The position numbers and the translations under genes were made by a program. Below are positions 20,508 to 54,800 of a stretch of 64,000 nt of DNA, one piece after another; the first letter of the stretch is position 1; each line of letters starts with the position of its first letter. The notes under the pieces were generated by a model, which was not told the origin of the DNA, ran no database searches, and was given only the letters and a program-made list of their open reading frames with translations. Source of the DNA: Echinarachnius parma (lineage: Eukaryota; Echinodermata; Echinoidea; Clypeasteroida; Echinarachniidae); the NCBI GenBank assembly GCA_037951105.1, contig JBAMJV010001815.1:124001-188000 (forward strand), read 5' to 3'.

Positions 20508-23500
20508 ATGGATCGCCCGGGTGACTTAGAGGCAAACAGGCCGACAGAAAAGGCGAATTATGTCTGGAAAATGTGGGAGAAAACCTTGTTTCCGCTGACA
20601 CTCTTGCCGATGCTGTGCGGTGCCTACCACAGCGTGGATATTGATGCTGGACCGAGAAACGAGAGCGGGAATAGAGAGGGGGATATTGACCGCGGTCACC
20701 GTCAGCATCGGCGGGTGTCTTTGCCGATCTTCATCGGTGTGGATAGGCTGTTCCAGATCCATCATTTCATCATCACCGTCGTTCTCTGCGCCTTCATCGG
20801 GTACAACTTCTCCTTTCTCTCCCTCTACTGGTCCACTCCAAGCGGTTTCGATTTCTTCGTGGTCAACATGAGCGGGGCCTTACAAGCCACGGCAAACAAC
20901 GCCATCATGTTTTGGAACTGCTGCAGAAAGAACAGATTTCGGCGTTTCGTATTGGTCTTGAGTTCCTACGTGACGATCTGTGAAGCAAAGGGTGTCAAGT
21001 TGTCATGGAAACGCGTCAGAATCCATGCTGCGTTGTTCGCTGCATTGGGTTTGGTGCTACTGGCGGGTGTTGGAATCGCCCCCTTCATCATTCAAAACTT
21101 GAGATATCCTGTGAATTTCGTTAACACTCCCCTACGGTTACTCATCATTGGTTTTACGTTACAATCATTCGCTGTCTTCTTCCTCGTTACTAACTTCTTC
21201 GCACCCAGTCTCTTTGCCGTCTTCTGTTACTACTTGTCCGATCTCTTCGCGGAGTTGACGGATGAATTCGAGAAGGCGCGACTACGGGGAAGTATCAGCG
21301 ACACGTCGATCTTGGATTCGTTCCGTCTTCGACATGCCCACATATGTCAGCTGGTTGAGATCGTCGACGAGGCCTTCTCCCCCATCGTCGCCCTAACGTT
21401 TGTGACGAATACGTGCAGCACGCTTTTCCTCGTCTATAGCCTTTTAAGCACAGAATTCACGGATCCGTTCGCTCTGTGGCACCAGGTCGCGGGGATTGGG
21501 TTCACCGCATCAACCATACTCGTGTTCGCGATCTCCGCTGCTCTCTTACACGATAAGGTGGGCTATGTATTTAGTAATTGACATGGGCGTCAACAGGCAG
21601 GGGACGGGGGGAGGGGGGGGGGGGGGGGGGCACATGTCCCCCGCATATGAAAGTGGAGGGAATTGTTCCCCAAAACATATAAAGACCAATATTACATTAG
21701 GCGAGGAGCAAACTAACTGGAAATGAATATTGACCATCATCTTTTGGCATGCATGTTTGTTTAAAGTTGGAAAGAAGGAAGGGTGGGAGGGGGGGGGGGG
21801 GGGGGGGTCTAAGAGAAAGAGGAAAAGGAAATTAAAGTACAGTTAAACCTGTGTATAGTGACCACCGAAGGGAAGTAAGAAAAGTGGCCACTGTAGACAT
21901 GTTACCTCTATAGACAGGTTCATTCCATTGTATGTCTCTGCAGAGGATCATTTTTAGTGGCCACTATAGGCAGTTTGGCTGCTATAGACAGGTGGCCACT
22001 AATACAGGTTTGACTGTAATAGCTTTTTAGCAACCAATAAATAATATATCGGCTCCTCGGACGACATCTGCGCGGGGATCGTGTCCTCCCTGACTAATTC
22101 CGCGGCCGGACTATTCCCGCTCCCACACCGGGCTGGTTACTGGTGGATATTATAATTATGATCGATAAGCGCGCATGCCGTGTGCACGTGCGATTGCATA
22201 GCTTTTGCATGCAGCGTATTACATTACAGGCCCGTAGCCAGGATTTTTCGAGGGGGGGTTGCATGATTTTCAAAAACGGGACCGAGACCGAGACCACTGT
22301 TTGAGAGTCGTGTAAGCAGGGGGGGTGTACGTCGCCAAAAATGTTCGCGGCCGAGGCCGAGACCACTGCAGGGTAAGGTTGTTGATCATTGGTTTAGATG
22401 TTCGAGACCAAAAAGTGGACCGAGACCGGCAAAAAGTGGACCTTTCTGAATCGGGGGCGGGGGTGGGGGGGGGGGGGGGGGTGCGTACGCAGCCAACGCA
22501 CCCCCCCCCCCCCCCCCCCCGGCTACGGGCCTGCATTATGCGGATTAATTTTATATATATGATAAACATATCGTGTAATTTCGAACATTGTCAAATAGTC
22601 AATTTGAAAGCAGTTTGTGTCCAAATCTTTAAATTGGCAGATAAGTTATGATATATTCTTTCACATGTATTTTCATTGTGTGCGTGTGTATGTGTGTGTG
22701 TGTGTGTGTGTTGGACCTTTCCCAATACTGTTACATGTATTTGGCTTTAATGTCCGATTGAAATGAAACAAATTTATATCAACATTTCCCTCTTCTTTTT
22801 TAACAGGCCCACTCACTCCGCCGACATGTTCATGAATTGCGGACCGAAGTATTCGACGCAGACATCGCTCAGGTATATTCTTTATTTTGTTGCCATGACG
22901 ATTTGTCATGTCCTACCTAAGTGGGTGCTATAAGTTATATAAGAAAAATCACCAATGGTTACTGTTATGGCATAAGTAATATTACGAAACAATACGTTGG
23001 TATTAGCCTTGACAAATATCGGTGAAATTTGATACCTCGACCACCTCATTTGCATATAATAGAAATAATAAGAAAATAAAAATGTTCATCTTACATCAAG
23101 ACTATAAAAGAGTTTTATTTCAAACTTTCAGATAATAATCTTATAGATATTATTAAGGTTATCTATTGAGTTTTTTATGACTTCATTGTAGATATATGGG
23201 CTTAATTATGAATATTATATTTAATTAACCTAATGATATATTCATCATTCCAATATCTTGAAAACGGATTAGAGATTGTGATGTTAGTAAAAACAATGTT
23301 TTAGAAAATGGACAAAAACTCAGCTGTGAATGGTTTTAATCTAACTGTTCTCAGCTTTAATATAAATTGTTAGATTACGTATATTTTGATTTAGGCCTAT
23401 AATACCACACCCGTGCTTCCGTTTAATTTCATCCAGGTCCAGATCTTGTTCCTGGCCCGGCTGGACGGATCCGAAATCGGGATGACGGCTCTGGGATGCT

Positions 23501-31286: not shown

Positions 31287-34200
31287 CTATATAAGCTCCA
31301 CCACCGTGGTGGTGTTTGTCTCCCGGCTTAGAACCCCTTCTTGTTTTCTCCTCTCCTCTTGGCTCCTCTCCTCCTCCTTCCTCCTTGCCTCCTTGCGGAT
31401 AAAATGCTTCTTTAGTCGGACCATGGTAGACTCCTTTTTCTTGGGCTGTCCGTTCTCCTGTGTTGGTGTGCTAGGCGCTGCAGCGGGGATCGGCGTTGGT
31501 GTGATGGCGTCCCCAGTTGTCCCCGGGCGGGGGAACCGTCGGCTCGATGGCTCCTTGCGGGGTTGCTGTTGTTCAAAAAATATTAACGAAAGATTGATTG
31601 TTAGTTTGATAGACATTATTTTGGCATTTCAATCGAATATGGATATTTGTTGTTGCATGCAAAGGCAAATAATTAACACTGATAATTATGATATTTGTGC
31701 AAATAGTAAGTTTGATAGAGTAAGACTATTTTTCTTGTATTCATGGGCTAATAATTATCATACATATTTATTATCTGCGAAATCATTTGTTTTGGTGACA
31801 AGGCAAAATGAGACAGGATAACTGACTGACCTTAGGGAAAGATGTTGTGGGAATGGTTTGTGGATTCGCAGCGGGGACCGGCGATGGTGTGATGGCGTCA
31901 CCAGTTGTACCCGGTCGGGGGAACCGCCGGCTCGATGGTTCTTTGCGAGGCTTCTGTTTAAAAATAAAATTAAAAAGGCACGAAATAATACATTGTGTTT
32001 TAAAAGCGACAAATGCAAATCATATTATGTTACTATAAATCAAAACACTGAAATCTTTATAAGGGAATAGAAATTTGGAAAACCAAAAGTTGGTCTTAGC
32101 TTCTATATGGGTAATACGAATGCTTTGAAATAATTATTGTTGTATAAGAAAGTTTTAACCATTTGGTTTTTGAACATGTGAATGTGATGTTGGGTAAAAA
32201 TAGAAATATCATCAAAAAGAATGTTAAAACCACTTTATATGTTCATAAATGTGATTAATTTATCATATTTTTCTTAAAATATATACAACCAAGTGTTGGG
32301 CCCCAACTATTATTTTCGATCGGATAAATTAATGGATATTTAAGCTATTTCTGAACCGACTTTGATCAAACAAAGTGTATATTCTGTATTTGTCTCACAG
32401 GAAAATATGTCTTGAAGCGCTCCCTCAACCCAAACTGTATACTATCACTTTCATGGCTCTATAAGAATGCTGAAATACCACGGCACTTTACAAAAACAAT
32501 AATAAATAACTACAAATAATAACGATTCATACCATGCGAATGTGTCCAACTTGAGCGCTCTGAGGGCTGTTCTGCTCCACCTCGGTGTCTGGAAGATCTG
32601 TGGACAGCGGAACAATTTCCTGGCTGACTCGGAGTTCGGTGGTCTTCGAAACAAGGCCAAGGCTCTCTGGGAGGATGGTGGTCCTTGAGACGAACCCCTG
32701 GCAGCGAAGCCCAGACGGTCTCGATGTATTTGGCAAGGTCTGCGCATTGGAACTCTGGACCTGGTTCGGGTTGCAGCGGACTGGGTGTCCTGGATACGGG
32801 AAGCGTCTGATCATGCTGACCCTCGGTGGATCGGTTGGTGTAACTGGCTCAGTAGTCCAGGCCTTGTTCTTAGGAGGCTCCCAAGAAGGACCGGGCGCAT
32901 TGACTTGTTGTGTGGTCGACTTGGGCTGGGTCTTGGCGAGATCGTATGGCTCGGACTCAGAGTCGATGGATGAATAGCTGCTGGCTGGACTCAGGGGAAC
33001 CTGAACCAATGTAAAACATAAATTAAGAGCTCAGTTTCAAAAGGCGCTAAATCCATTTCCCATAACAATTGAGTTAACGATATATCTACATTTATAAGCT
33101 ACGTAGCTATCTAGGAGTCCACGTTTTACGACAAATTACTCACTCAAAATCAAAATATAGCAAGTTAAATTTTCATATTCCCATAGACACGTGTACAAAA
33201 ATGGGCAAAGAAACTTGTTTTCCTCGAAAGTTGAAAAAGTGGATATAGCGCCTTTTGGAAGAAAGCTCATACAGTTAATCTTTTGTATATAATATAGTGT
33301 AAGGGAAACACGTAAAGTTGTCACTGTAGACAGGTGACTCGCATCGTTCGTCCACGTCGTTTGTATTAAACAGACGCGATTAAACCTTCTCAAATAGCTA
33401 AATCAATTTATTTCCATGGTCAATTAAGTAGCAATTTCTTTGTTATCACTTATTAAAATAAAATAGATTATAGACAGTAACAATAACATTGTGTTTGTTT
33501 TTTTTACTCTGCAGGGGATCACTTTTGATGGCCACTAAAGGCATGTTAGCTGTTACTGGTTATAGACAAGAAACCATTCATTCATGCTTGAGTTTTATGA
33601 TCAATTATTGTAGAAAAACAACAAACATCACGAAAGATTGTGAAAATATGGAATCTATTTCATTACAATCATTGCCGGAAACAAATTATTTCATATTTAT
33701 GGCATATGTGTTTGAAGAACGCATTTTAGCGGTATTTAGTCCCGCCTTTTGACCGAGTCTCTCGTGCGGATATCATAGATGAATGGTGAAAGAACCACTG
33801 CAGCTAAAAACGACGGTCGTTCGTCCACGTCGTTTGTATTAAACAGACGCGAGACCTTCTCAAAGAGATAAATCAATTCATTTCCAGGGTCAATTTAGTA
33901 GCAATTTCTTCGTTGTTAAAATAAAATAGATGATTTTATCTCTTACCACCAGAGTAAGCTGTTCATCCTCCTCGGTCTCCTTGTTGTATTGCTGGAGACT
34001 CTTCATGACACTGAGAGCAGTCTGCAAAAGAAAAGAGGGGCAAATAAGGGGCAAAGAAGAATAGTTTGTAAGGCACGAAGGAAAATAAGAGCAAAGTTGC
34101 AATCAGGGCCTTGTCGCAGAAAGATATATATCAGTACCAGTAATCGGTTTAAAGTTACAATTACATGTAATTGTAAGCCATAAAATTGGCGAGTTTCAAC

Positions 34201-37200
34201 CAATCAGAATTGCGCATTTAGAAGATAGTAATTATTATCGATTTGATCTCTTTCTGCAACGGGGCTCAGATCTAATTGTTCATAGAACTGTTTTAATGAA
34301 GATCATCAAAGATGCATTATTGTGACGAGAATGAGTTGATCAATAAAGTGATTTGACTGTCAAGTAAGCGTATTAAAGGGATAACTTTAGGAATGTGTCA
34401 ACCATCCTGAATCTATTTATCCACAACCTTACACTACAAAGAAGCAACATTTTAGATTGCAATGATAATAGTAACCTCCGAACATTTCGGCTGTCATCTA
34501 CAATGTGATCAACAGTTTTAAATGTTGCTTTTTAAGTTATTAAATACCAATACTCAGATGAACTTTCATAGTTATAACTTAAACTACGTTTTGGATCGAC
34601 CTTGTCAATGGCATCCTGAACTGGATAATTATGCATGTGTTTTAATAGTCAGTTTGTTTAAATCCATTCCAACAATGCTTTGTAATTATTATCTTTTCTT
34701 TTTTCTTCAAAACGTTTATTTTCACACATCACTCAGTGATTATATCTGACCAAAGAAATACAATGTTATATCAACCTCCGTCAGGTTTGCATCCTAAACT
34801 TACCGGACGTTTTGGCTCGGCCGTACCAGTGGCTCCCTCGGCCCATGCACTAACTACACTGGAACGCTGAGGTTCATGCTACAACAAAACGAAGCAAATC
34901 ATTTGATATTTTAATATATATTTCACTTTCTTTATTATCATCTATGCTAGCTAGACGAATTGTAATAGTTTCTTTGATATACAAGTGTGTGGTGTTATTA
35001 TCATCAGATTTCTATGTTTACGTCCAGAGTAGATATGAACTGCACTATTATTTGGGTATGCATAATGCAAACTACAATATTTTAAAGGTATTCTGAAATT
35101 GCTTAAAGAATGCCTTTTCAGGAAATACACTATTGCATGAAATGACCCCTTTGAATTACATAAAGTTTTGCAGTATTTCCCTTTGATATTGTACTCTCCT
35201 TTCAACAAATGATTTGTTTCCCCATCTGGTCGTTTATTTCTACTCTGAGCTGATGAGTTTGTAATGAGTATGCGTAGCAAAGATAATCTGTCTAACGAAC
35301 AACTAAGCTTTAAGCCTCTGAACATTTTTACCTTGGTTAGAAGAGTATCCAATCCAGATGCCGCCAGCACAGAGGGGCCGACCGCGACGGTCTGTGGTGT
35401 CAGTGCCAGGCCGGCTGTGGCAGCCTGTGGCGCGGGAGCGGCGGGGGCTACGATGGTCTGCGGTGCCGATAAAGTGGCGGTTGCGTCAGTCTCTGCCATC
35501 CCTGCGGCTGGCGGCTGGTGTGATTCGGTTCCGTTGTCAATGCGTTGTGCCACCCCAGGTGCTGGCTTGGGGAACTCGTAGAGAGGCGGTGGTACCTGTT
35601 TGGCGGCTTTCTTTGTGGCCTTTTTGGCAGCCTTTTTGGTCTTTTTGGTAGCCTTTTGAGCAGCTCTGAAAGCCTTGATCTCATCTTTGACAGCCTACAA
35701 AATCAATGGCAACAAATCAGTGAGAGTAATATTAAGGGCAAACAAATTTTGGCAATAAAACATCGAATAATATACAGTCTAGCTGATAAAATTGTATTAT
35801 GTTTATAATTGTGGTACACGTATGTTCATTGCGTTGAATGTTATTAGCATGTGTATAGTTGCCGTTTGTATTCGGCTATTGACTAGAATCTTGACAATGT
35901 CATGTCAATTTGCTTAGTACATGCCTATATTGGAACTTTGTTCGTCCTGTATTAACTCCTTGTGGATTGTAAAATCTAGTTGATAACTTATAAGTGTAAT
36001 AAACACATTTCAATAGGTTATTGTTTAATCGTGCAGCATTTCCATCCAATGGGTTGACAATAACGGTGTATGTACGGACAAGCTTAATTTTTATCATAAC
36101 TTCATTCCTTTTTAAAGGGGACCACCAGGCAAAGAACAACACATTATTATATGTTTTGGTACCGTTTTGTGGTATCAAATAGATACCCAACATTTTGCAA
36201 AGGGTTGTGTAATTCATAAACAAAGCAATTAATTTCCACCACTAACGGAACCACTGCTATTTCCTGGTTCCATACGGGCCATGCATTTGCGAGTGCGCCA
36301 ATGCTTTCACGCGTACGTCAATAGAATCCCGGATGATTCGTTCGCTCTGCACAGAGCGCTATGGCTCTGCACACATATAGTATTCGCAATTCAGACCGCA
36401 TGAACGCATGGATGAGAATGGTGATGCGTTTTCCAATTATATATTTTTTTCTGAAAACATATTTTTGTGAACTTGTTGAAAGAATGGAATACTAAATATG
36501 TTACCTTTCTATAATAAGAATATTATTTTTGGGTGGTGGTACCCTTTAAATCATTTAACCTAGAAGATTAAACCTAAAAGACTGTCCTTAAAATACTGCA
36601 TACCTGGCGATCGAGTTTGGCCTGTTCCTTGTCACTGATCTTTGGAGCCTCGGTCTGAGTCTCATCGACGAAACAAACCTAGCATACAGGTCAAATTAGG
36701 ATTATTTTGGCATGTAACTTGTTTGAGGTTAATTGTCAAGCTTTGATTCGCCTATTCGAAAAAGGCTCATATTCTAACCTAAAATGACAAATACTATTAT
36801 TGTTCCATAATTAAAAAGTGGTATTTGTAAATGTATTTTTTAAATGTTGTTACATTATGTTGATTCACATTATGTTGATTCACATTATGTAGATTCATAT
36901 TAATTAATATTACAAAAAGTAATTAGATCCGAATTTCATCAAAAGCAATTATTACCTCAGCCTTTGGTTTCTCAACGCAAAAGACACCATAACCACCTTT
37001 AGGAGGGTTGCACTGTAAAATAAAAATAATGATAATAAAACATGAATATACAAATAAATATATAGCTCAGAACAACTTAAATAATGGTCATAATTATCAC
37101 GTAACAAACAGTACTCATTAACAATTTACAGTTACAACAAATTGATGCATTGCTTTATAAATGATGATGCAATTTTTGGAATTTAACAAAGGTGTGTCGT

Positions 37201-40200
37201 CGGTTTGATACCTTGTTTGTGTATGGTAGGAGCAAGGAGGGGCACGGAGGGACGTTATGTGCGGGGTAGTTGTCGCCCGATGCTGTTACGTCGTCGTCAT
37301 CCGGGGTAAAGGGTGCCGGTCCCACGGGGGCGTACTCGGGAACCGGGTTGGTTGATGTCCCAGGACGCTCCGTAGCAAGGTCTGTCTGTGGAGGAGGTTC
37401 AGCGGGAGCGGGTTGGGCACTCTCCACGGCAGGGCCGGGAGTCGAGCCGGCCTCGTCTGGAACAACCGCTTTCTTCTATATTATGTAGCAATAACATGAA
37501 TAAGATGTTGATTGAAATTGGAACTAAATTTAAATGGAAAGTCGTGTTTCTTTTCAGGCGCACGGACGTGAACAATATCATGGAATCAACGGAATACAAT
37601 AATGTACCTTTTTGATGGGTAAACTAAGGAAATATTTCAGCAGTTTCTTACTACACTGCGTGATTTGACAAAAAGAAGGGTTTTAATTAAATTGTTTAGG
37701 AATGAGACTATAGAATGAAGTTTAATCCTGCCCCTGGATAGTCGCTTTTAATGACAATCTCTCTCGATTATGAGTTTTTGTTTGTGATGGACACTTTGAT
37801 TCTTGAATGTTCATTAAAGTGTTTTCATTTGTATTGTCTCCTCACCTCGGTCTTTGGCTTTTCCACACAGAACATCTCAAAGCCGCTTTTCGGTGCATTA
37901 CACTATAACAACAAGAAATTATAAAATAAATATTATCTACAATAATAATTTATATTTCATGCTGTTATTTTTTACATTAATCTACAATGGATACAAGAAT
38001 TGGATCCCATTCAAATATTTATAAAGCCTGTTGAAGATTATTCTATGAATAATCAGTTGATGTTTTGATATGAAGTTAACTGAAAACATGCTTGAAAATA
38101 AAATGGTGCGCTCTTATGCGACACATTTAGGTATTCAATTATTCAAAATTAACCAATTAATCATAATTATGAATGACGTGGAGTTGATGTGCTCATAAAG
38201 CAAATAACTGACAGAACGACTCTAGTGCCAGAGATTTAAGTGAAATTACATAGCAATATAAAAGAAAATACGCCTGACTACACATGAATGACAAGCTATT
38301 TTCTTAGGAACTCCTTTCTTCCCCTCGCCATGCTCGCAATCTAAGCTTAGAACAACCTTTATCTCACATGAAAATGCGGACTCATTTTGAATAAATTATC
38401 AAATATGTAATTATCATTAGGGTTTAGGATGTTAACGGGAACTTGGTTGGACCTGTATTTTCTCTATGGGAATTGAACAATCGAGTAAGGAACAGAACGT
38501 CAGCGTGATAATTGTCTGTCTAACCTGGTAGGTGTAGGGGGCCATCCAAGAGCCGCCATTCTGAGATGTGGTTGCCGCGCAGTCAGAGGTGCAAGAGATT
38601 GGTGTCACGGTTGCGTTAGAGTTCGCGAACAAGGGTGTACGCGTGGGCTGTGTCACAGGTGCGCAGGGGATAGGTGCCACGCGTGCCATCGTTGGTTTGG
38701 TTGTCCCATCAGCATTGTTGGTGTCAGCCGGGCTAATAGCAGCTGCTCCAGTCATGCCAGTCGTTACAGTGACGCCGGATCGGACCGGATGTCGCTTGAA
38801 GGTCCAGCTTTGCAACAAATCATCGATCTCATCCGTTGTCGCTGGCTTCTGCGATATGTGTTCATTGTAAAATTGTTATTTACAAGTTAATGCATGGATA
38901 TAGACCCTAATACATAATAACGTAAGTACATTTCGATACTTTTGAAGACAGCGTAGTAATATTCTTCATCAAATTTCTTTGATACACAAAGATGGGTTAA
39001 ACAAAATGCATCTCAAATTTAATGTTAGCGCTCTACATCATTAATTCGATATTTGGGGTGGGGGAAGAAGGATTGGTTTCCAAAACGAGAGGGGCAGGTT
39101 GGCATACGACCCGCAAACCCTTGAACACTGTAGTAAAGATACTCACTCAAACATACATGGACACAAAATATAATGGCATATTGGTGTGAAGGGAGTCAAA
39201 TTACACGATTATTCATCATGGTCATAATATAATCCGTACCTCGCTTTGGCTTTGGCTCGGAGGGTTCGGAACCGCCACGAATCCACTGAGGCCTGTCACA
39301 GAAGAGTCCGACGGAGTCGAGTGTGTAGGTGATTGTGTCTTAGCCGTCTCTGCCACAGGGTGTGTCTTTGGAGTCGCAGACAGCTCTGACGTCCTAGCCG
39401 CCAGTAAGTCAAGTGGAGGAGGGCGGTAGTCACTGGCGTCCACGGATGCTGAGATGGTATCAATGCCGGGACGTGTAGCTGGTTGACCACCGTCGTCACC
39501 TTCATCGTCGCTATCCAGAGGCATTTCGAACTTTTCCTGTTTACATAAGTTGTAGCAAAAATGAATCTTCATGATAGAATCATAGATGATACTTATGTTG
39601 ATGATGGTGATGGTGATGATGTTTAACGATAATGAAGATGGTAATGATTATGGTTGTGATGATGATGATGATGATGATGATGATAATGATGATGATGTTG
39701 ATGATGATGATGATGATATTGTTGTTGTTGTTGTTGTTGATAATGATAGTGATGACGTTGACGATCATATGTTATATTAGCACTTTGATTGTACGTTCAA
39801 TTTCAAGTTTCTTCATCATTCTGTGACTCCTTGGCCATGTTAGCGGATTAAAGACTTACCTGTCTGACCACTATCATCTAACACCTCAGAACTCTTATCA
39901 AACTTAGGCTTACCACTTTAGTGAAGAAATGTTCGCCGCAAGCTCCAATGTTGGCATTCGTCTCCTGTGATTTAATTGGCGCTGGGTAGTCCGTCTGGAT
40001 GACCTTCGGGTCAGGCTCGGCTGGAACAACCGGACGAGCTTCGACATCGAGGGCGGATCGTTGTTCGGTAGTCGTACGAGCTTGGTCACTGCCATCATCG
40101 CCATGAGAATGGGCAAGAGGAATGGGTACCTGTCATGTGAAGAGAAAAGCAAATACGTACGCATAATTTCATGACTTGTATAGTGAATGCTTTCTTTTAA

Positions 40201-40396
40201 CAAATTGATAATAATATGCTATCTTCTGAATCTGCGCAACTGATGACAAAGTGGAAGAGGCTGCGCTTATTCCATATGATTTGTTCTGTTTCCAACAAAT
40301 ATTTATATTTTGAGAAAATAGTTGTTTATTTTATTTGAACAGATTAATGTATTTACCACGCCGTCGGTTAAAAGATAGAATGACTAACTAATTAAT

Positions 40397-40436
<40 letters not shown>

Positions 40437-43400
40437 CAACTGATAAAGTAACTAGCTAACCTCGCCATTTGTTTGCAGGTGGAATGGAAACCTCTTGTTG
40501 GCTGTGTAGGGCCGCGTCAGGTAGATAAAGAACGCGTGGCCAAGGAGAGCCGTGCCCACGAGCAGCGCATTGGAGAAGTTCGGACTGTGGGAAGGAAAAG
40601 AAAATACTAGTTATAATAATAATACATTATAATAATAACTTCATTTATATAGCGCTTTTTGCAAAAAAATGATACAAAGCGCTTTAAAAAAAATAAAATA
40701 AAAAAAGTACAACAAACAAAGAATAAACAGATACATAATTACAATTACAAACCTACAAATTGTACAAACAATAACTTAACACAATTCAATAGAGAGGGCA
40801 ACCAAGTAAATATGTGTGTCTAAAAGGTTCTAAAGACATACTTCAATATTAACTTATTACTTAGGATACAGGTGGGTTTTTAGTGTTTTTTTAGGTTTTT
40901 AGGTCCAGTGACTGCAAAAGCCTTAGATCCAATGTTTGTGCGAGTTCGTGGGGTATTTAATACAACGGCAGAATTAGATCTTAGGTTGTACAAAGACTGA
41001 CGGATGTGGGGACTGGATGAGAGGTGATGTATGTGTAGATTTAGGTTTCTTGTAGATTAGACGGGCGGCTTGATTCTGAAGGAGCTGTATGGTGTGCAAG
41101 TTCTTTGTTGATGTTCCATAAAGAAGGCTATTGCCGTTATTTAGAACGTGCATTCATTTATTAGAGTTCAAACATCACTCTTTTGGTCTTGGTATAATTA
41201 TAGCGTTAAGAGCACACTAAAAAAACTGTTGAAAGGGTATCTAAATAATGTGTAATATAGTTTATCAACATACGAAGTATTTGAATATCAAATTCTACCA
41301 AACGATTAATCCGTGATGTTTCTGAAATAATACTTCGAAACGCAATTGAAACATTGATCCACCCTACTTCACATGAATGGCTGAAATCTGAACTCTATCT
41401 AACATAAAAATTAAGCTTTGTTGGGTTTTTTTCCCCAACAGATTCCTACCTGGCAAGTTTCGGGTAGATGGAATAGGAGAGCCAAAGGATGATGGGTTCC
41501 AAGCAAAACCAGATCCCGAAGAAGGCGGTGAAAGGGGTGTAGAAGCCCGCCTTGGTCGGGTTGTCCTTGGCAGTAGTGTAAGCACTACACACCGTCAGAA
41601 GGAAACCTGATGAAAGACATTTTAAATCATAACAGTGAAATGAATAATTCCTTGCTCGGGTGTTCTTTGGCCGCATAGTAGGCACTACACCCCGTAAAGA
41701 GGAAACATGAAGCTTTAATAATTTAGTAGACATGTATGTTTACTTCCCATTTAATTCTGATAATTTATTTTTGCTGCATTTATAAATTTGTTCACCTTAG
41801 TCATGTTGGGCACTATGTATTCATATTAATCTAATCGTTTTACCCCCATCCCCCACCCCGCTTCCCTTTAACTTACTGATAAACTTGATGCCTATGATCC
41901 CACTCGCCGCCAAGCCGGAATGATCATGACTGGTGGTGACGTCACGAGGGTCCAGAAGCATGTTCTGATAAATGAACATGGCCATGTATGAAGCTGCGTA
42001 GAGCGCACCAAGGATCACCACTTTGATGAATTTGCTCAGTCTGATGCGTGCTCTGAAAGGGTCATATTATAACACATCATTAAAGTAAATGGAGTGACTA
42101 AATACGTCACGAGGGTCCAGAAGCATGTTCTGATAATAAATAAACAGACGGAATGTTCTTTTCCATGAGTTTGTAATGTCGTCTTTAATAAAATAATCAA
42201 CAAACACACCGGCAACCGGCAATGGTTCTTATAAATAATTAGAAAGGATTTTAAATATAAAAAAGTGATATCTAAATATTATTTTTTATCGGACTTACTT
42301 GGTGATAGAGAAACCCTTTGAGACCAGGAAAATCATGGAGGCAAAGAGAACGCTAGACAGACGCCCCGTGATCTCGGCTATAGAAGAATCAATGAAACAA
42401 ATTAGAAAAATTACTTCAAGGTGTAAATAGAGCAAGAGTTTTGCCGTTGATGGAGGATAAACATTGATAAGTTTTGAGCCTCAAATGTGATCCTGAATCT
42501 TGCAAATATGGTAACTAGTGATGTTATATTTTGAGTTGCTTGACATGGATTAATTAGTGGATATTTGGCTCTTTTTCATATTTTCAGACAATTTCTGGTG
42601 AGAATTAATTAGTATTATGTCGAACCGTTCTTTTAAGCATGTTGATGAAAATACTTGACAGTTATTAGTTATCCTTGAACTGTTCTTGAATGTAAGTATA
42701 GTTTAGCAGTTTATTTAATGAAATTTCCTTTTGTATGCGCCAAATTGTATTAAACAAAGTTACTTTTTTTGAAAAAATAATTTTCTTCGCATCTTTAAAT
42801 AAATAAAACCATTATAACATTACCTGCATACTGGATGGAGATGGAGCGTATCCCCGACCGCGCAAAGCGGTAAAGGCCACTGCAGTGAAGCAGAAGGCTG
42901 CTGGTTTGCAGCACCAGACTCATGTAGAACAGGTAGTAGGTGAGGTGCAGAAGCTTCCGTCTGGCCAGTGTTCCTATTTATATATGATTTTAGGTTTTCA
43001 TTGAAAGAGAAAATGCGAATATACATGAGTCAACTTTAGAACATTTTAAATTAATTTATATCGCAGATCCCAGCGTAGCTGTCAGCAGCAGTAGACTGGT
43101 GAACAAAGGAACAATATTAGTCATGATTTTGATAATTTAAAAACACCACCATAAAGTCTACTAGGGGAATATAGTGGGGTAAAAGACTGGTGGTTTAAGG
43201 CACTAGACTCATGTAGAACAGGTAGTAGGTGAGGTGTAGGAGCTTCCATTTGGCCAGTGTTCCTATTTATATGGTTTTAGGTTTTCGTGGAAAGAGAAAA
43301 TGAGAATAATGATTCATGAGCCCACTTAGTCACGATTTTAAATAAATTTGTATAATTAAATTAATTATTTCTTATTTCATTATTTTATTTTATAAATAGG

Positions 43401-46400
43401 GTTAACAGTGGAGTAATAGGCTTGTCGTTTGAGCACTATGTATAGACTCAGTTGATAGTGCAAAAGTTTATTCTTGGCATTGCTATGTGTCGACGTTAAT
43501 GGCGAGAAGAAATAATTATAGAATGATAATTCCGGCACATGCACTCAGACGTCAACAACTTATACATCTCAGATGTCAAGTTGTATATATGTGATGTGCA
43601 GAAGTCATTTTTTAGAGGTATAAAAACAAAAATATTTGTTGGTTAGGTTATCATTAACATGATAAACTTTGTCAATGTCCTAAATTGTTTTAAGCAATCG
43701 TTGGGTTCTACACTGTACAATATCGTAATATTAAGTTGTTGCTGCTTTAAAAGATCTAGAACCAAATGTGGATGATTTCCCGGCAGAACATTCAGCTTCA
43801 TTCAGCTTTTATAAATCTAAGATTAGATTTGAAATCTAAACTCAAACTTACTTCGATGTCGAGACGCCAGGTAGGTCATGAGTAGGTATGCTATAAGAAA
43901 ACCAGCGTCCTGTTCCATAACATCTGCACATCAAAGAAAGGATGATACAAAAGAAACGAAAGCAAAATGAAACAAGAAAGTGAAATGTGCTTTTTTCTTT
44001 TGAGGTAAAGTCCACACAGCATTTAATATACAAATTGAAATTTACAATTTTTGCATTGTTTATTGTTTTGTTATCGATGTATGTGTATTTAAAAAAAAGA
44101 GATGTGAGAGTAAAATTGAATAGAATCATAATTGAATTAAATTAATTGAAATGAAACTACCCGTAGTACATACGAAAATATAACATGTAAAACGAATGTA
44201 TGAAGGAAAAAATGAAAGAAAAGTGAGAGAAGTGAAAGTTGAATTATTGTGAAGTAAAATTTAGTAAAAAACTGAGTGCTATACAATAAACTGTGCATTC
44301 ACCGTTAAATATAAAATTGATTATGTTTTGGTGAATTACTGAGCTACAATCGCCATAAGTTGTTGCCGTTAAGATTCATTAACCATATTTATGTTGATGC
44401 TCGCATTTCTACAAAGTAAATATAGTGGCAATACATTATAGAGTATTAGACAATTATGACCTTACGTTTCTCATTGGCTGGGAATTCTTTGAAGAAATCG
44501 TCGTTGCCGTTGGTCATGTGGAGGCGATAGGTCAGGTCACGAATCCCTGGTCGAACTCCATCACGACTCTGGTTACGACCACAGTCGGTGAGGTAGGCGA
44601 ACCACCATCGTGGATCGGGAGCATCGGAGAAGTCAACGAACCCGCGGCAGACCAGCATCTAAATTAACGAAATAACATTTATTTAAATATTTGACGTTAT
44701 CCTACTTATAGTAATGGATAATCATTGAATCATAATAACCATAAATTAATAATGATTTATTAAATACATCATGGAATAATTACAATTACTTACTGAATCA
44801 ATGTTTAACAATTTCCCTCCATTGATTCCGACAGAAATGTTGAACTCATTTATTGGATTTTGTATATTTTTTCCCCTCCAATTTTGGACTAAATATATAT
44901 GTGTAATTTAATTTCTTGTCAATTGCTTGGTTGTATTTCATTTGTCAAACGATGATTTGGATATGAAATTAATAAACAAAATGAAATAATATGGAATGAA
45001 ATGAAATGAAATGAAATGAAATGAAATGAAATGAAATGAAATGAAATGAAATGAAATGAAATGAAATGAAATGAAATGAAAATGAAATGATAAGAAACTC
45101 ATTGAAACTCATTGATATGAAATCAAATGAAATATGTAATGAAACTCATTGAAATGAATTGAAATGAAATATAATGTAATGAAAAGAAACGAAACGAAAT
45201 TAAATTAAGTGACCAAAGGATTAAAGGTGGATTTAATGTATAACAACTTACTTCTTTGTCACCGCCCGTCGTTTCCAGTTCACAGTCAGCCGATTCCTGA
45301 GAAAGTTCGATGTTGTGTTCCGGGTCGACTCCATTCAGTATCTGATGACAGGTCTAAATGAGAAAATGGATGCGCAGAGATAAACGGAGAAGAAAAGTTA
45401 AAAAGAAATACAAGATAAAATAAGAAAGATAAAGAAAAAAAGAATACGAGATAAAGATAAATATACGTTGAACAAGTGAAGAATGAATTAAGAATGAATT
45501 GAATCATTTGTGTTTATATAATAATATGCATTTTTGTTTAATGTACTTGAACTTTATATTGCAGTTATTACAAATTATGATTTGGTTTTATTATTTGATT
45601 TTATTTAAAATGACGGCGCACTATCTTGAAAACAAAATACAGGAACGAGCCCAAACAAACAAACAAACAATGAAACATAGAAACAAACAATCATACCTTT
45701 TTGTCATTATCCCTGATTTCGTGCTTGCAACCAGAGGAGGCGGGCCTGGGTGGGTAGCCAGAGTTCAGATGATGCAGTTGTGGTCGTTCGTTACAGGGCT
45801 ATATAGAAACAAAAACAAATGGAGAAAAGGAACGAAAAACAAGAGATCGCGAAACGTATCAATCGTTTATTCATTGATTAAATGTCATAATTTAATTAGG
45901 GTATCAAATTAAAAAATTACATGTCTGCCTGATTGAAACGTAAAATTACATATATAATTGTAGATAGACAATATAAGATTAACATAGATGTATATGGATA
46001 GATAGATACTAAATATAGAGAGGGGAGAAATGGGTTGAGATAAAGGGAGAGAGAGAGAGGGAGATGGGGTCGAATAAAGAAATCAGGGAATTTGTCAATA
46101 ACAAAATAAATAACAGTTGTATGCAATAAACCCCTTGCCTATAATACACGAGCATGGTGGGCTTAGTACATTACAAAGCAGTATATGGGGATGCGAGATT
46201 CTCGAAGTTAAAACAAGTTAAAGTCTTTCCCGTACCAATGTTGGCACATAAGGCGGGGCCTATCTCCGTTTCAATAGTCCTAGGCCACACGTCTACTAAA
46301 TGTAGCGAAAGTTACAGAAGGGGGCTAGTCCTCTGGTAACTCGTGTGATTAACTTTCCCTTCTCCATTCTATAAATGCCGAGTGGCTGGCTAGAAGGCAG

Positions 46401-47665
46401 AATGTACCATTTTTAAAGTCTTTGGTATGACCCGGTCTTGGTTCGAACCCGGGACCTCCCGTGCATAAGGCGGACACTCTAAGAGATTCTCGAAGGGAAC
46501 AGGTTAATATGGGCTACTGGGATAGGCCAATAATTGTGACCAGCTATATCAAAACCCTGCACTTGTCGGTAATTTATTGTTTTTAAGAAATTGTCATTTT
46601 CAGTTCACATACTGTGTGTAAAAGACCTATGATTGTAAAATTGAAACAATCACATTTTGGCCAATTATTGACCAATTTGTAACAACAAAGCATTAAATGA
46701 AAGCTTGTGATGGTGCCTTTGTAATGGTATTAAAATCTACATTTTGATTTTTACCGACAAGTGCAGGGTTTTGCTATAGCCGGTCACAATTATTGATGTC
46801 AATTTTTACCAGCTTTGGCTTGGATTCTGTCAGCGTAGTTGAAGTCAACTGAGAAACGCTGTCGTCAAGAATCACAAGCCGGTAGCAACAGTAGTCCTAT
46901 TTATAGTAATTTAAACAAAAGTAATACCGAATAAATGATGTAATGTTGATTTTGTATGATAATGATTATTATTGTTAGCAATAATAATAAGGAAATAAAT
47001 AAAAACTTAAACATTGTGTACATTTTATACATGTATACAAAATACATTTATTGTTCTTATTTTGTAATGATATATTATCATGGTTAAACAATCTTGGCGT
47101 GAACTTTATTTCACAAGTGCGCAGAACGCGTTGATTCTCAAAGTTGTAAATCATTAAATCATCAGTATATTTTATTCATAATGATTAAACACCAAGACAA
47201 AAATAATTAAATTAAGAATGACACCAACAGTATACTTACAGAGGGGTAGCGGATCTCGTACTCCAACAAATTTTCTTCTCCGTTGCCGAAGAAGAAGTTG
47301 TCGATGAATACGAAATCCTGCATAAAAATAAAAGAAGAAAAATACACAATGTAAATGTAAATAAGTTATTACTGGACTGTTTAGTTTACTTATGTTATAT
47401 TAAGAATATCAAACTTGGTGATAATAATGTCAACTCCTGTCTGCTGTTTATTAAAATGACTACTGGAAATACTCCTAACCAATCATATATTATACATGTT
47501 ATAGGGTGTTTTTTTATTTTATAAATTATTATTATTTTGCGTATTTCATGTTTGGTATACCTGCATGTCCGAGTCGATTTTTCCATTGTTCACCTTGCCT
47601 TCAGACTTGTTGCAAAGCAGCAAGCTCAAAGCAAGGATGAGAATGAAAGCCTTGAATCCGTCCAT
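31287..47665 (-). CDS. TMEM145/GPR180-family 7TM receptor with a large novel C-terminal tail, 25 exons
   Basis: Exons in transcription order: 47665-47561, 47317-47240, 46896-46810, 45798-45697, 45353-45252, 44658-44466, 43923-43852, 42973-42824, 42377-42299, 42052-41877, 41606-41450, 40584-40461, 40129-39914, 39536-39240, 38848-38525, 37902-37846, 37475-37212, 37012-36956, 36678-36604, 35694-35332, 34878-34804, 34021-33947, 33000-32533, 31953-31831, 31565-31287. They total 4098 nt in one frame (1365 aa). Exon 1 is a signal peptide. Exons 2-6 form an ectodomain with LLEYEIRYPS, DYCC, RWWFAYL and LTYRLHMTNG, which are TMEM145/GPR180 landmarks. Exons 7-12 give seven membrane segments with RRKLLHLTYYLF, LVSKGFSI, FYTPFTAFFGIWF and LTRPYTANKRFPFHL. 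Family members usually end soon after this last motif; here a roughly 850-residue Pro/Thr/Ser/Lys-rich tail follows. Function unknown. Confidence 0.9.
32297..32450. repeat. MITE family A fragment in intron 23
   Basis: GGGCCCCAACTATTATTTTCG, TTTCTGAACCGACTTTGATCA and CCAAACTGTATACTATCACTTT match the right half of family A. It lies about 80 bp from the donor site of the 468-bp exon. Confidence 0.55.
36112..36549. mobile_element. TTAA-flanked MITE family C in intron 19
   Basis: The left TTAAAGGGGACCACCAGGC and right GGTGGTGGTACCCTTTAA are inverted, with TTAA at both outer edges. It is 438 bp long. The ends share AGGG with families A and B but the interior differs. Confidence 0.6.
39586..39760. 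repeat. (GAT)n/(GTT)n microsatellite in intron 13
   Basis: Imperfect GATGAT repeats followed by GTT repeats, starting about 50 bp from the 297-bp tail exon. Long open frames here are repeat translations. Confidence 0.9.
40383..40438. repeat. (AACT)n microsatellite
   Basis: About twelve near-perfect AACT units lie just before the donor side of exon 12. Confidence 0.9.
40615..41160. repeat. Dispersed repeat with TATATAGCGCT motif
   Basis: TTCATTTATATAGCGCTTTTTGC, CAAAGCGCTTTAAA, AGGTGGGTTTTTAG and TTAGATCCAATGTTTGTGCGAG look like a SINE- or LINE-tail family common in marine invertebrates. Similar AGCGCTTTAT or GCGCTATATAAAT motifs occur at about 15215 and 54465. Ends and class are not defined. 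Confidence 0.45.
43180..43310 (-). repeat. Partial copy of exon 8 in intron 7
   Basis: GGCACTAGACTCATGTAGAACAGGTAGTAGGTGAGGTG.AGAAGCTTCC, followed by GGCCAGTGTTCCTATTTATAT and GGTTTTAGGTTTTC, repeats the 5' half of exon 8 (about 42900-43010) together with its acceptor. The copy is shorter and lacks the 3' half and a donor, so it is a non-functional exon duplicate. Confidence 0.7.
44995..45088. repeat. (AATGA)n microsatellite in intron 5
   Basis: About seventeen near-perfect GAAAT units, with degenerate GAAAT sequence extending to about 45195. Confidence 0.95.
46208..46483 (-). mobile_element. SINE with 12-bp target duplication in intron 3
   Basis: AGATTCTCGAAG flanks the element on both sides (46196-46207 and 46484-46495). 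Read on the minus strand it begins with the 3' part of a tRNA: TTAGAGTGTCCGCCTTATGC, CGGGAGGTCCC and the B box GGGTTCGAACC. An unrelated body follows, with GGTCATACCAAAGACTTT and AATGGTACATTCTGCC. The tRNA head lacks its first half, so the copy is 5'-truncated or the family starts there. No poly-A tail is obvious. Confidence 0.78.
46529..46794. mobile_element. MITE adjacent to exon 3
   Basis: The ends AATAATTGTGACCAGCTATA, continuing with AAAACCCTGCACTTGTCGGTAA, pair with TTACCGACAAGTGCAGGGTTTT and TATAGCCGGTCACAATTATT. Arms of about 46 bp enclose about 170 bp. The right end lies 15 bp from the donor site of exon 3. Confidence 0.75.
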
Positions 47666-48485: not shown

Positions 48486-49508
48486 GGGGTACAGCTTTGC
48501 CTTTTTTCTTCCCATTTCCTATTTATTATTGGGATATTTATGATTTAATTCGAAGAAAATTGTTTTTATCGGGGTCATTCCAACTGTGTATATACAAACG
48601 TATAGCAATAATTTAGCAAGCAGCACTTTGAATGATCGCTCTCGTTACTCAGCCATATTTTGTCAGTTAATTTAAGAACATGGACATTTCACACAACACT
48701 CATTGGAAATTATCAGGTCACAGAAATACACATTCTTAAGTCGGTGTTTCCGATTATTTGAATATCCTCTAATATATATCATTCCTATATCTCTCCAGTA
48801 AACCAATTATGTTTTCTCCCATATCGTATAAAACGACAAAAATATATCCGTTATATTTTACGGTATATTGTATACGTGATTAAGAAGATAAAATGTCTTA
48901 ATTTATTGCTGCAATGAGCTTCAAATCCAAGATGGCGACCAAATAACTACCAATGATTGTTATTCAAAACGTCTTCCATTTGGATACCATCTTAGATTTT
49001 AAGGTAATCGCAAAAAGTGTTAAAGATATTATTTACAATTGGCATGTTACTATCGAATTTCACTTTTTAACTTGGCTATTGTTACACAACAACAAAATAC
49101 GTCCAAAATGATGGTAATGTACCTAACACGATACATTTTATTCAATATCTCAAATTAAAGGCCATTTTTAAAAACCAATCGGACAATTTGTAATGAAAGA
49201 ATTTAGCATTAGTAAATAAACAAATAATTACGGGGAATCAAAATCATATTTTTGGAGACTACCAACTAAGAGTAAATAAGCTATTATTTATTTTCTGTTA
49301 AATAATAAATTGGCGGGAAATCGTGATGCGGATGCCACCACTCAACCCACCGTTGGAGTAAAAGTAAGTACCAGAACGAGTAAAGAATACTGAATTACAT
49401 ACTATTTAATAAAAGTACCTTCTTCTTAAATTGATCGATTCATTATTGGCTTACAATGATGTTTATTTTCCTGATTATAGCTTTAAATAAATTTGTTGTT
49501 TAGCATAC

Positions 49509-49613
49509 CTGCATGTCCGAGTCGATTTTTCCATTGTTCACCTTGCCTTCAGACTTGTTGCAAAGCAGCAAGCTCAAAGCAAAGATGAGAATGAAAGCCT
49601 TGAATCCGTCCAT
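49509..49613 (-). CDS. Second, near-identical first exon (signal peptide) of the TMEM145-like gene
   Basis: It encodes the same 35-residue signal-peptide exon as 47665-47561, with one Leu-to-Phe change in the hydrophobic core (ILIF for ILIL). It keeps a perfect donor (ATGCAG/GTATGC). About 250 bp of upstream sequence is duplicated with it. It can splice in phase to exon 2 at 47317, so it may be an alternative promoter and first exon. It could instead be the remnant of a larger duplication. Confidence 0.7.
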
Positions 49614-49860
49614 TTTCACTGGGTTGGAAGCTAGAAGCTTTCTTCCCAACGAAAATTAATACTAATTAATTTGCTTTCTTATAGCAGATCAACGCTATAA
49701 GATTGCAGAATGTAGAGAATTAGCAAAACCCGATACAACCTAAGCTGTAGTCAGAAAGCGTAATGGTGCTTTTTGTTTTTACATCTCAAACAGACGGTAT
49801 CAAACTTAACTGTAGCTAAGTCAGTGCGCAGTCGTTACGTAATAATCACGAGCGCGTCTT

Positions 49861-51839: not shown

Positions 51840-54800
51840 ATGGCGATGGCAGTGGATCTCGAGTTGAAAAAGGTAACGAAACTGTGTTGAATTTCATCTA
51901 GATGTCGTCTATAAATTGATACGATATGTGTAGAATAGTAAGGTGTGAAATAAAGCTACTAGCTAACCAAGTGATGAAGTGACTTTGGTGTTAGCTTTGT
52001 GCAAACGAGTAAACGAGAGTATCGAGTATTTTTAATCTCGAGATACCGGTCGTGCATTTAGCTTCAGCGGGCGTCGGTGGGAATCGTACGGGAGAGATGT
52101 GGCCTAGAATTTGCTGTTGCCGCGCCTCGCGCTGTGATAACCGGTGCGTGCACTCGATTGGACATGCACGCAATCAATTGCCTTAAAATAATTGATCTTG
52201 ATGGTGGAATGGAAGAGCTCCGTCATTCTGGAACAAGACTAAAACTAAAGCTGTCTGTGTCATATGATGTGATGCGATGTGAAATAATTTAATATGATCC
52301 ATTTGTACACTTTTTGCAGGTCTTTTGACTTTCAGTTTCAAACTAAAACTTTCAGTTTCACAGTTTCAGCATGGAACTTCATCAACGGCATGGCGGCCAC
52401 GGCCAGGCATAGTGGAGATGACGTTGCAGCTGAAGATTGTAGACTTCATTAATTTTGTATATCACTGCTTATCATATATTGCAAAAGTTTGTTTCCTTTC
52501 CCGTAACGGTAATCAACAAACATTGACAAAGAGAGAAGATCTAAATCCAGAATAACTAAAGAGTAAAGTTAGTTAGTGAATAGAAGTGCTCGTCAACAAA
52601 TTAATTATGCAGATCATCTGCAAAATGAGGATATCCTTGTAAAATGTAAACAAGGACAAATTGTTGTATTGCTGTTTATAAGTATGATTTGTATTTTATT
52701 CTAAAGATTCTAAAGGAGGAGTCATTCTGCATGTTGATACAAAGTGATGTAAGATTAAAATGTTCCTTGACATGTTGACTTCTTTATCAAAGGGAAATGC
52801 CAGTAGAGGAAAATAGTTTTATTGGCCAAACTAATTAATTAGTATTGTTGAAATAGCATAAAAAGTGGCATGTATGGAAAAATCCGGACCGTAGTATCGT
52901 TAAGTGCAAAAATATCAGTTAAAACGTTTATGAAAGCCGCTGACATTGAGCCTAAACTCACCGTCAGTTTGGACCGTCTTCGCTGGTCACAGTGACATAG
53001 ATACGCTCGTTCGAGCGATTCGCTCGTGCGAATTACCATGTGCGCATTTGCCATAGGATTAACACACATCGCACGAGGCGGGATATCGGCGAGATATCAA
53101 TGCGCAGCGGATAGCTTTATAATTTACCAAATATATCAATTAGTAGGCGGTTTCCAGGCCAAATTTGTATCATCCCGTATTAGTAAAAACATATTCTTTC
53201 ACATGATTGGTAATAAGAGTGTACATTTAATTTTTTGTGTGTGGGGCGTTTCCCACTACTGGCATTTCCTTTAATGTCGGGGGGAAAAAATTAAAATGTA
53301 TTTGTCGGGGGCTACTTTTCAAGCTTGTCTGCATGAAAATGACACTCCAAAATTTGATTTGCATTGATCTCCATGTACATATTTTCGGGGGCTCTTTTTT
53401 GGTATTTGGGGCGCGAATTCACCCCGAGCTCCAAGTGTATTTTTTTCACTGATTAATGTGCACATCAATTTGTAAACTGTTTGACTTAAATATGTCGAAA
53501 GTGCATTTGCATGTCATCATGGAACCTCTAAAATGTTTGTTTTGTTTTGGCAGGCCTTTTAGGAGATGCAGAATCTGTATGGTGGAGACCACCCAGCAGC
53601 TGAAGATGTCGGACTTCAGCTGTAACTATTCTATTTGTTTGTTTTTTCTCAATCAGTGAAATAAAAACCAGAAATGCAATGTAAGTGTGATGTGATGCTA
53701 GGTGAAATAAGATCCATTTTTGGTTGTTTTTGGCAGGCCTTCCAGGAGATGCAGATCCGCATGGTGGAGACGTCGCAGCAGATGAAGATTGCAGACCTGC
53801 AGGTTGAGCAGCTGAAGAGGAAGCAGCAGCACTGCGGTCTGACCGCCAAGGAGCTGGGAGCACTACCCTCGGAGACCAGGGTCTTTGAAGGTGTCGGCAG
53901 AATGTAAGCTTGCTTTCTTGTCTGATATAGGGTGAATTTTGTCACCACAAAATATGCAGATTCACAAGCCAAAAGTGAAACTTTCAACATTTTTTGAACA
54001 CTGCTTAATTCTGATGTTTGGCAAGTATTTAAGGAAATAAAATAAAATTCACCTGACAATTTCTAAATAAGTCTTGTCAGATTTATTTACACCATCAGTG
54101 CCATTTATAAATATAAGGGACAAATCTGTCACCCCCCCCCACCCCAATATATCATGTGCACCCTCCCAATCAATTCAACCATGCTACCCTACTGTCTACC
54201 ATTTAAAATAAAAACATTCAGTTTAATTTTAAGTGTTACAATACTTGAAAGGAGATCAAACACTACCCCTTTGTCTTCTACCTGGGGAAGTCCACCACTA
54301 TTGACTCATTTGACCATAATAACTGCATTTGCCTGGCTAGAATGCTCCCCAGGGAGTGGAAAACGTGCACTTTGTGAGCTGGATCGATTGCAGAATGCAT
54401 CCGATGACCGGGGTAATAATATCATTGTAAAGTGCTTAGATATGATTATCAATCGTAATATGCGCTATATAAATTGAGTATGTATGTATATTATTATTAT
54501 TGGAAATAATATCGCTAGTGATATTCGTTTGTCTCGCAATGTATGGTCAAACTAGGAATCTAAAAGATCATGATGTTTCGTATGCCCCTGCAATACTTGT
54601 CAAATGTCAAATGATATAGTCTAATGTAGACACTCGGTTTTTATGCTCTACCGTGGCTCCAAAACACACTCTCGCAACTAGATTCCTAGTTTGACCATAC
54701 ATTGCGAGACAAACGAATATCACTAGCGATATTATTTCCGATACTATATCCGCAATGGATTATATATTTACTATTATTATTATTATTAGTCATGATCCTC

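Follow-up and report, generated by a model that had tools for sequence, protein, structure and literature searches.

A TMEM145-type seven-transmembrane receptor and a long novel tail encoded by one gene of a multi-copy family in Echinarachnius parma

Proteins of the class called GOST (TMEM87A/B, GPR107/108, TMEM181 and Wntless) are described, in the passages of PMC9711517 compared here, as a lumenal domain followed by seven membrane segments, and for TMEM87A the same passages give a cytoplasmic helix 8 after TM7 and an unresolved C-terminus of about 80 residues (475-555). TMEM145 is little studied but, as far as the literature passages compared go, has been located at sensory structures, namely in cilia of sensory neurons for TMEM-145 of C. 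elegans (PMC11317154) and in hair-cell stereocilia for the mammalian protein (Roh et al. 2025, as cited in PMC12716839); a link of TMEM145 to the cell interior is not described in these passages. In C. elegans, the tmem-145 cDNA used for a GFP fusion has 1542 bp, about 514 codons (PMC11317154). In other systems, for example GPCR-PIPK and GPR155-DEP, a seven-transmembrane (7TM) unit is joined to an intracellular domain, and the C-termini are folded domains (passages of PMC12716839). Herein we analysed a window of 64,000 nucleotides (contig C1814:124001-188000 in the 1.2-Gb assembly of Echinarachnius parma), in which one gene shares the lumenal domain and seven segments of the GOST class and, like the last-named receptors, joins a 7TM unit to a presumably intracellular part, but where this part is a tail of 890 residues without recognised domain, in contrast to the folded domains of those receptors and to the roughly 80 residues of TMEM87A. 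That a TMEM145-type 7TM receptor and a long novel tail are the product of a single gene is practically certain. Relative to Pfam, NCBIfam, PDB and the open-access literature, which is the scope compared, the architecture appears to be new: no description of a long-tailed or expanded TMEM145 was found in titles and abstract openings among the matches listed, and a term search of the sea-cucumber genome preprint PMC13228809 showed that TMEM145 is not named there.

The gene is read from the minus strand and consists of 25 GT-AG exons in a single frame, with the ATG at 47665, the acceptor of exon 25 placed at 31565 and the stop at 31287, giving a product of 1365 residues; both coding ends fall exactly where an earlier reading made from the letters alone, herein the sequence-only reading, had set them when it proposed 25 exons in one frame across 16 kb. 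Exons 1-12 encode the receptor (residues 1-475) and exons 13-25 the tail (residues 476-1365), where every exon is phase 0 and exons 13-24 both begin and end in that phase; the long tail of the earlier proposal thus stands, and its length of roughly 850 residues has to be corrected to 890. Between exons 12 and 13 there are only the 331 bp of intron 12, and the phase is continuous across it.

As to the receptor part, the TMEM145/GPR180 plan previously assigned to exons 1-12 is borne out and can be refined, since the N-terminal domain is that of TMEM145. In fact, TMEM145_N (PF21892) scores 40.5 bits against a cut-off of 28.1 (E 4e-10) and GPR180-TMEM145_TM (PF10192) 96.9 bits against 23.7 over residues 231-428, so that both domains, which are shared with TMEM145, stand above their curated Pfam cut-offs, and GOST_TM (PF06814), the family of the wider class, stays below its own with 20.7 bits against 25.2. 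The DYCC motif is found in exon 3 and RWWF in exon 6. The signal peptide (residues 3-19) and the seven membrane segments (between residues 227 and 456), also expected beforehand, are seen by hydropathy only. GPR180 has the transmembrane family PF10192 in common with this gene, but an identity as GPR180 is disfavoured against TMEM145 because the N-terminal domain matches TMEM145_N instead; no GPR180-named N-terminal family is among the Pfam matches at E up to 1, although Pfam presumably has one. Against PDB sequences the receptor gave no phmmer match at E up to 10, and the seven-segment part has no homologues in the viral_contigs or genome_contigs collections. What sets the gene apart from TMEM145 is the 890-residue tail, the human protein being about 493 residues long, with longer predicted isoforms that may exist.

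The tail exons are coding sequence by several tests. All 890 codons are free of stops (an order-1 model of the same exons gives log10 P about -11), the codon choice at the synonymous level correlates with that of the receptor exons (r = 0.79 over 59 codons), and the exons have a guanine-plus-cytosine content of 45-63% versus 31% in the introns. With splice-site matrices trained on receptor sites only (donors 1-11), the 13 donors from exon 12 onward are separated from 575 intron GTs with an area under the curve of 0.976, and the 13 tail acceptors from 455 AGs with a weaker 0.757. When position-specific base frequencies were learned from the receptor exons, the resulting model preferred frame 0 in just 3 of 13 tail exons; it is weak because the tail differs in composition from the receptor, and it was not counted toward coding. 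Moreover, the internal repeats of the tail give evidence which is independent of the stop, codon and splice-site tests: exons 16 and 18 encode related elements of 19 residues, CNAPKSGFEMFCVEKPKTE and CNPPKGGYGVFCVEKPKAE, which have reached synonymous saturation (13 changes over 11.2 sites) at only 7 nonsynonymous changes over 45.8 sites, and exons 24 and 25 both hold RKEPSSRRFPRPGTTGDAITP, with proportions of differing synonymous and nonsynonymous sites of 0.33 and 0.05 over 28 codons. Part of exon 23 is similar to the repeat of exons 24 and 25, with 41% identity over 39 residues. Since PYTYQ closes the exon before 16 and PYTNK the one before 18, a unit of two exons may have been duplicated, though the DNA of these two preceding exons no longer aligns well. 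A chance open reading frame was rejected on the stop-free tail, the codon-use correlation and the paralogous copies, and it is these paralogues that settle the coding nature of the 13 additional phase-0 exons.

The same receptor with the same tail occurs repeatedly in this genome. Sequence of the exon 6 type is present on at least 17 contigs with 65-96% identity, and among the matches listed an eighteenth contig (C2136) has receptor exons 1-2 only, near the contig end. The window tail matches at least 10 of the 17 receptor contigs (C1814, C8819, C8684, C7902, C2799, C5503, C9812, C2342, C6070 and C6502; 56 matches), and the tail joined from the diverged copy on C1395 matches these ten and adds six others (C1395, C291, C10638, C12506, C7598 and C2124), with 93 matches in all. 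As 90 of 207 candidates were scored in the receptor search and 51 of 350 in the window-tail search, both of these contig lists are lower bounds; for the C1395 tail all 95 were scored. On 16 of the 17 receptor contigs listed the tail matches lie 3' of the receptor on the same strand, which supports a single receptor-tail gene, with one additional exon-15-like match on the opposite strand in C1395. Identity along the whole gene reaches 97.0% for C8819/C7902, 97.1% for C5503/C2342 and 95.7% for the window gene and C8684, and four further pairs are near-identical as judged from matching hits (C2799/C5503, C6070/C6502, C291/C10638 and C12506/C7598). If such pairs are alleles, the 17 contigs would represent about eight loci, a grouping that could be off by a few. 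The gene in the window is accordingly a member of a multi-copy family in the E. parma genome and not a single oddity.

Exons were placed by collinear chain in seven copies with receptor and tail (C8684, C8819, C7902, C5503, C9812, C6070 and C2342) and, for the tail only, in C2799, whose tail is near-identical to that of C5503, and these eight copies are not independent. All 25 exons are found in four of the seven (C8684, C8819, C7902 and C2342), 24 in C5503 and C9812, and 23 in C6070, where exons 4 and 15 are undetectable; C9812 is missing exon 25 alone, and the stretch compared there ends about 1 kb past exon 24. Over the eight copies AG is present at 92 of the 93 tail acceptors that could be tested (the miss is exon 24 of C9812) and 87 of 89 testable tail donors are GT (the misses are the fused exon 16 of C9812 and of C6070). 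The ratio of nonsynonymous to synonymous rates (omega) in the tail is 0.42 versus C9812 (757 codons, synonymous divergence dS 0.28) and 0.36 versus C6070 (734 codons, dS 0.26), where receptor exons 2-12 give 0.21 and 0.15; versus the near-identical copies the tail omega is 0.38-0.65 at dS 0.02-0.06, and some of those differences may be allelic. Versus C1395 (10 kb, exons 7-24) the values are 0.29 for the tail and 0.19 for the receptor, biased low as only aligned parts enter. About half of the intron bases can be aligned to C9812 and C6070, compared with 84-86% of tail bases and 93-100% of receptor exon bases. Because related genomic copies carry the same tail, the join of receptor and tail is real and kept by selection.

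It is in the most diverged copy read, C1395, that the conserved parts of the tail become visible: its receptor exons 7-12 are 64% identical over 234 codons, and its tail is mostly unalignable to the window tail, with short islands persisting. The 19-residue element occurs twice there (CEPPKGGYGMFCV... and CNPPKDGFGTFCVERPEAE) with the pattern CNPPKxG[YF]xxFCV. Further islands are the two ends of exon 15; exon 20 contributes KAAxKxxKKxAxQV, PPPLY and KPAPG, exon 22 TALSVMKSLQ, exon 23 VPLSPASS together with RFPYPGH, and exon 24 RKEPSxRRFPRP. Exon 18 is unaltered in both C9812 and C6070, where exon 16 reads DEP[EK]GGFGMFCVQQPKDD. The tail consists of 13% Pro, 11% Thr, 11% Ala and 8% Ser (Pro, Thr and Ser together 32%) and gave no match in Pfam, NCBIfam or PDB sequences, in agreement with its description as novel. 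The lysine run and the charged C-terminal helix pointed out in the sequence-only reading are both present; in single-sequence AlphaFold2 models the exon 20 peptide is predicted to form a helix over residues 2-33 (predicted local distance difference test score about 90 at its start) and the exon 25 peptide one over 47-91, both confidently, and outside these helices the two peptides are of low confidence or coil.

Besides this family, the genome holds a second TMEM145-like gene, on contig C3897, with the best PF10192 match of all (50.4 bits for one exon). This gene is nearer to the Pfam consensus than the window gene and runs LTRPSAANLNFPYHVRTTQVGV...VPNFSELFSV... until it reaches a GTAAGT donor, where read-through meets a stop after five codons. 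It shares the LTRPSAANLNFP end with the window gene but then goes on with HVRTTQVGV...VPNFSELFSV where the window gene has its tail, and no tail exon is recognisable in the 7.9 kb downstream; we take the stretch VPNF[TS]ELFS to be one that vertebrate TMEM145 has as well. Since the C3897 gene is closer to the consensus and without tail, the window gene is best placed in a TMEM145-like subfamily that has diverged and expanded next to a more typical gene. In the stretch of C3897 read, one exon stands as near-identical tandem copies at positions 1609-1668 and 1875-1934 of that stretch (...ADALFLLQLILMAKG[YC]TITR), which are perhaps mutually exclusive.

In our proposal, the locus is one member of a lineage-expanded TMEM145-like GOST subfamily, whose members have a signal peptide, a lumenal or extracellular domain and seven membrane segments, and bear a long, presumably cytoplasmic and mostly disordered tail from about a dozen phase-0 exons. 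This tail is probably a docking scaffold, in which selected short peptides (the doubled 19-residue CNPPKGGYGVFCVEKPKAE, the doubled RKEPSSRRFPRPG, VPLSPASS and TALSVMKSLQ) would bind cytosolic partners and the lysine-rich helix would bind acidic membrane or cytoskeleton. Such docking may hold the 7TM protein in place or direct its traffic, with cilia or microvilli as a plausible site by analogy with the C. elegans cilia and mammalian stereocilia. The cytoplasmic position of the tail, the docking through its islands and the anchoring or traffic of the 7TM unit are what we infer, together with expression and a ciliary or microvillar site, and the statement taken whole, mechanism included, comes near to an even balance but falls short of it. 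A wider conclusion, possible but on the doubtful side, is that in this lineage TMEM145 has turned into a multigene scaffold-receptor family, where a GOST 7TM unit is permanently fused to an exon-modular disordered docking tail and in-frame change by splicing, exon duplication and fusion yields adaptable membrane-to-cytoskeleton or membrane-to-cilium anchors; being phase 0 at both ends, exons 13-24 can indeed be skipped, duplicated or fused in frame. In any case a 7TM module is seen here to carry a large tail that grows by duplication of phase-0 exons, and this long selected tail with its defined islands of 10-20 residues offers ready-made baits for cytoplasmic partners.

Several observations weigh against this proposal. 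The disorder is based on composition and the two single-sequence models, and by a simple charge-hydropathy rule the tail falls just within the folded range, so that its disorder should be regarded as likely rather than proven. Three tail acceptors, those of exons 15, 19 and 20, are weak, with decoy-like scores. PPLY, the only named interaction motif, is present in the window as had been read and is intact in C8684, C7902 and C1395, but it is lost in three of seven copies (C5503, C9812 and C6070, where Y or P is lost); it is then not a conserved element or a family-wide WW ligand, and was dropped as the key one. Among the copies, C5503 and C2799 are without a separate exon 24, whose end has become attached to a shortened exon 23; in the diverged C9812 and C6070 no intron separates exons 16 and 17, which are fused; and a one-base deletion in exon 24 of C7902, either a real lesion or an assembly error, shifts the frame. 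C13242 has its receptor on the minus strand without a same-strand tail match, and a lone exon-15-like match stands on the plus strand 19 kb off the receptor. Moreover the ciliary relative, C. elegans tmem-145, is short, unlike the window gene.

Of the other explanations, that of two products survives best, improbable as we consider it: intron 12 would often be retained or polyadenylated, which would give a protein of 477 residues, of ordinary family length (...TNGEVS and stop), and the long form would be minor or tissue-specific, with any subset of tail exons skippable in frame. In fact, read-through of the exon 12 donor adds VS and then a stop, two AATAAA signals lie within intron 12, exons 13-24 have the phase that skipping needs, and the three weak acceptors would fit such skipping as well. 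However, AATAAA or ATTAAA is equally common in other introns (0-5 each), and the copies read retain the tail exons and splice sites under selection, for which reason the long form must be made somewhere. Slightly less probable still is that the tail is fast-evolving filler, a Pro/Thr/Ser-rich linker grown by exon duplication with selection mainly on its frame. The tail omega does exceed the receptor omega in all eight copies where both were measured, the repeat exons show growth by duplication, some copies have fused, missing or frameshifted tail exons, and much of the tail cannot be aligned in C1395; but with dS near 0.27 an omega of 0.36-0.42 lies clearly under 1, particular islands are conserved as the remainder diverges, exon 18 is unaltered in C9812 and C6070, and the exon 16/18 repeats keep their peptide despite the synonymous saturation.

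A tail on the extracellular side, with an even number of membrane passes and a mucin-like, O-glycosylated character, would be in line with the 32% of Pro, Thr and Ser and with a mildly hydrophobic window of 17 residues at 1008-1024 (1.47), but it is very hard to credit: the signal peptide and seven segments stand at the family positions and therefore give a cytoplasmic C-terminus, the tail contains lysine-rich and charged helices, and helix 8 of TMEM87A is cytoplasmic after TM7 in the structure passage of PMC9711517. Finally, an independent tail gene, or a join made by assembly or exon calling, which the short C. elegans relative might suggest, was rejected as next to impossible, since the tail trails the receptor on the same strand on 16 of the 17 contigs listed, no confident tail match falls on a receptor-free contig among the matches listed, and only the short intron 12 with continuous phase lies between the two parts.

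Table 1. Parts of the receptor-tail gene, in positions of the window
Feature	Position	Strand	Evidence
Exon 1, start codon and putative signal peptide MDGFKAFILILALSLLLC	47561..47665	-	gene model, hydropathy
Exons 2-6, ectodomain with DYCC and RWWF	44466..47317	-	TMEM145_N, best stretch residues 122-188
Exons 7-12, seven hydrophobic segments, end TRPYTANKRFPFHLQTNGE, donor phase 0	40461..43923	-	GPR180-TMEM145_TM, residues 231-428
Exon 13, first of tail, phase 0	39914..40129	-	gene model, paralogue comparison
Exon 14, tail	39240..39536	-	gene model, paralogue comparison
Exon 15, tail, end WMAPYTYQ, weak acceptor	38525..38848	-	gene model, acceptor scoring, paralogues
Exon 16, 19-residue repeat A CNAPKSGFEMFCVEKPKTE	37846..37902	-	repeat comparison, paralogues
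Exon 17, tail, end LLLPYTNK	37212..37475	-	gene model, paralogue comparison
Exon 18, 19-residue repeat B CNPPKGGYGVFCVEKPKAE, most conserved tail exon	36956..37012	-	repeat comparison, paralogues
Exon 19, tail, weak acceptor	36604..36678	-	gene model, acceptor scoring, paralogues
Exon 20, predicted lysine-rich helix, then PPPLY and likely disordered stretch, weak acceptor	35332..35694	-	acceptor scoring, single-sequence model, paralogues
Exon 21, tail	34804..34878	-	gene model, paralogue comparison
Exon 22, conserved island TALSVMKSLQ	33947..34021	-	paralogue comparison
Exon 23, conserved islands VPLSPASS and RFPYPGH	32533..33000	-	paralogue comparison
Exon 24, RKEPSSRRFPRPGTTGDAITP repeat	31831..31953	-	repeat comparison
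Exon 25, second copy of RKEPSSRRFPRPGTTGDAITP repeat, predicted charged C-terminal helix, stop, end VVELI	31287..31565	-	repeat comparison, single-sequence model

Duplicated pieces of the gene are found around it as well. A second copy of exon 1 at 49491..49860 (-) has its own 5' flank and donor; its coding part (49613-49509) is identical at 104 of 105 bases, and the 5' flank has 200 identities and 37 mismatches. This doubling, with both copies intact, recurs in five close paralogues, and one copy is present in the stretches of C9812 and C6070 read; possibly the two copies mark alternative promoters. Decayed partial copies of exons 8, 10 and 11 lie at 43153-43260, 42103-42213 and 41642-41704 (-), within introns 7, 9 and 10, each shortly before the intact exon, and similar extra copies of 7TM exons occur in some paralogues, for example two of exon 11 in C9812. 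From such copies it appears that exons of the 7TM part, too, have been duplicated repeatedly. The end of exon 25 with its 3' flank is copied at 9560-9772 and 10169-10239 (-), 85% and 93% identical, where a poly-G-rich element of about 400 bp, starting GGCGTACCC and ending GGGTACGCC, splits the copy. Elsewhere in the genome, weak matches to the 19-residue C-N-P-P-K repeat, two each, are seen at C12214:14796-16124 and C9359:947-2275 (E 0.47-1.57), with no receptor match listed there; they may be chance or a third, more diverged tail.

Apart from the receptor-tail gene, no Rfam match was obtained within the window, and Pfam points to several further protein-coding candidates. At 15527-16747 (-) there is a single-exon rhodopsin-type G protein-coupled receptor of 406 residues (7tm_1, E 2e-43), and at 20508-21581 (+) a frame of 357 residues like the chemosensory receptors of 7tm_7 (E 1e-8). 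The region of about 2-4791 (+) is possibly the 3' part of a membrane protein, the joining of its pieces being our interpretation: a weak fn3 match at 2-184, under the cut-off, is followed at 2063-2431 (+) by an exon that matches fn3 with E 2e-10, near 3538 (+) by a hydrophobic frame that resembles an exon, and near 4525 (+) by one in which YTEL, PPEY and YEIP occur. Lastly, the open frame at 53665-53904 (+) is Prefoldin-2-like with E 5e-6, slightly below the Pfam cut-off.

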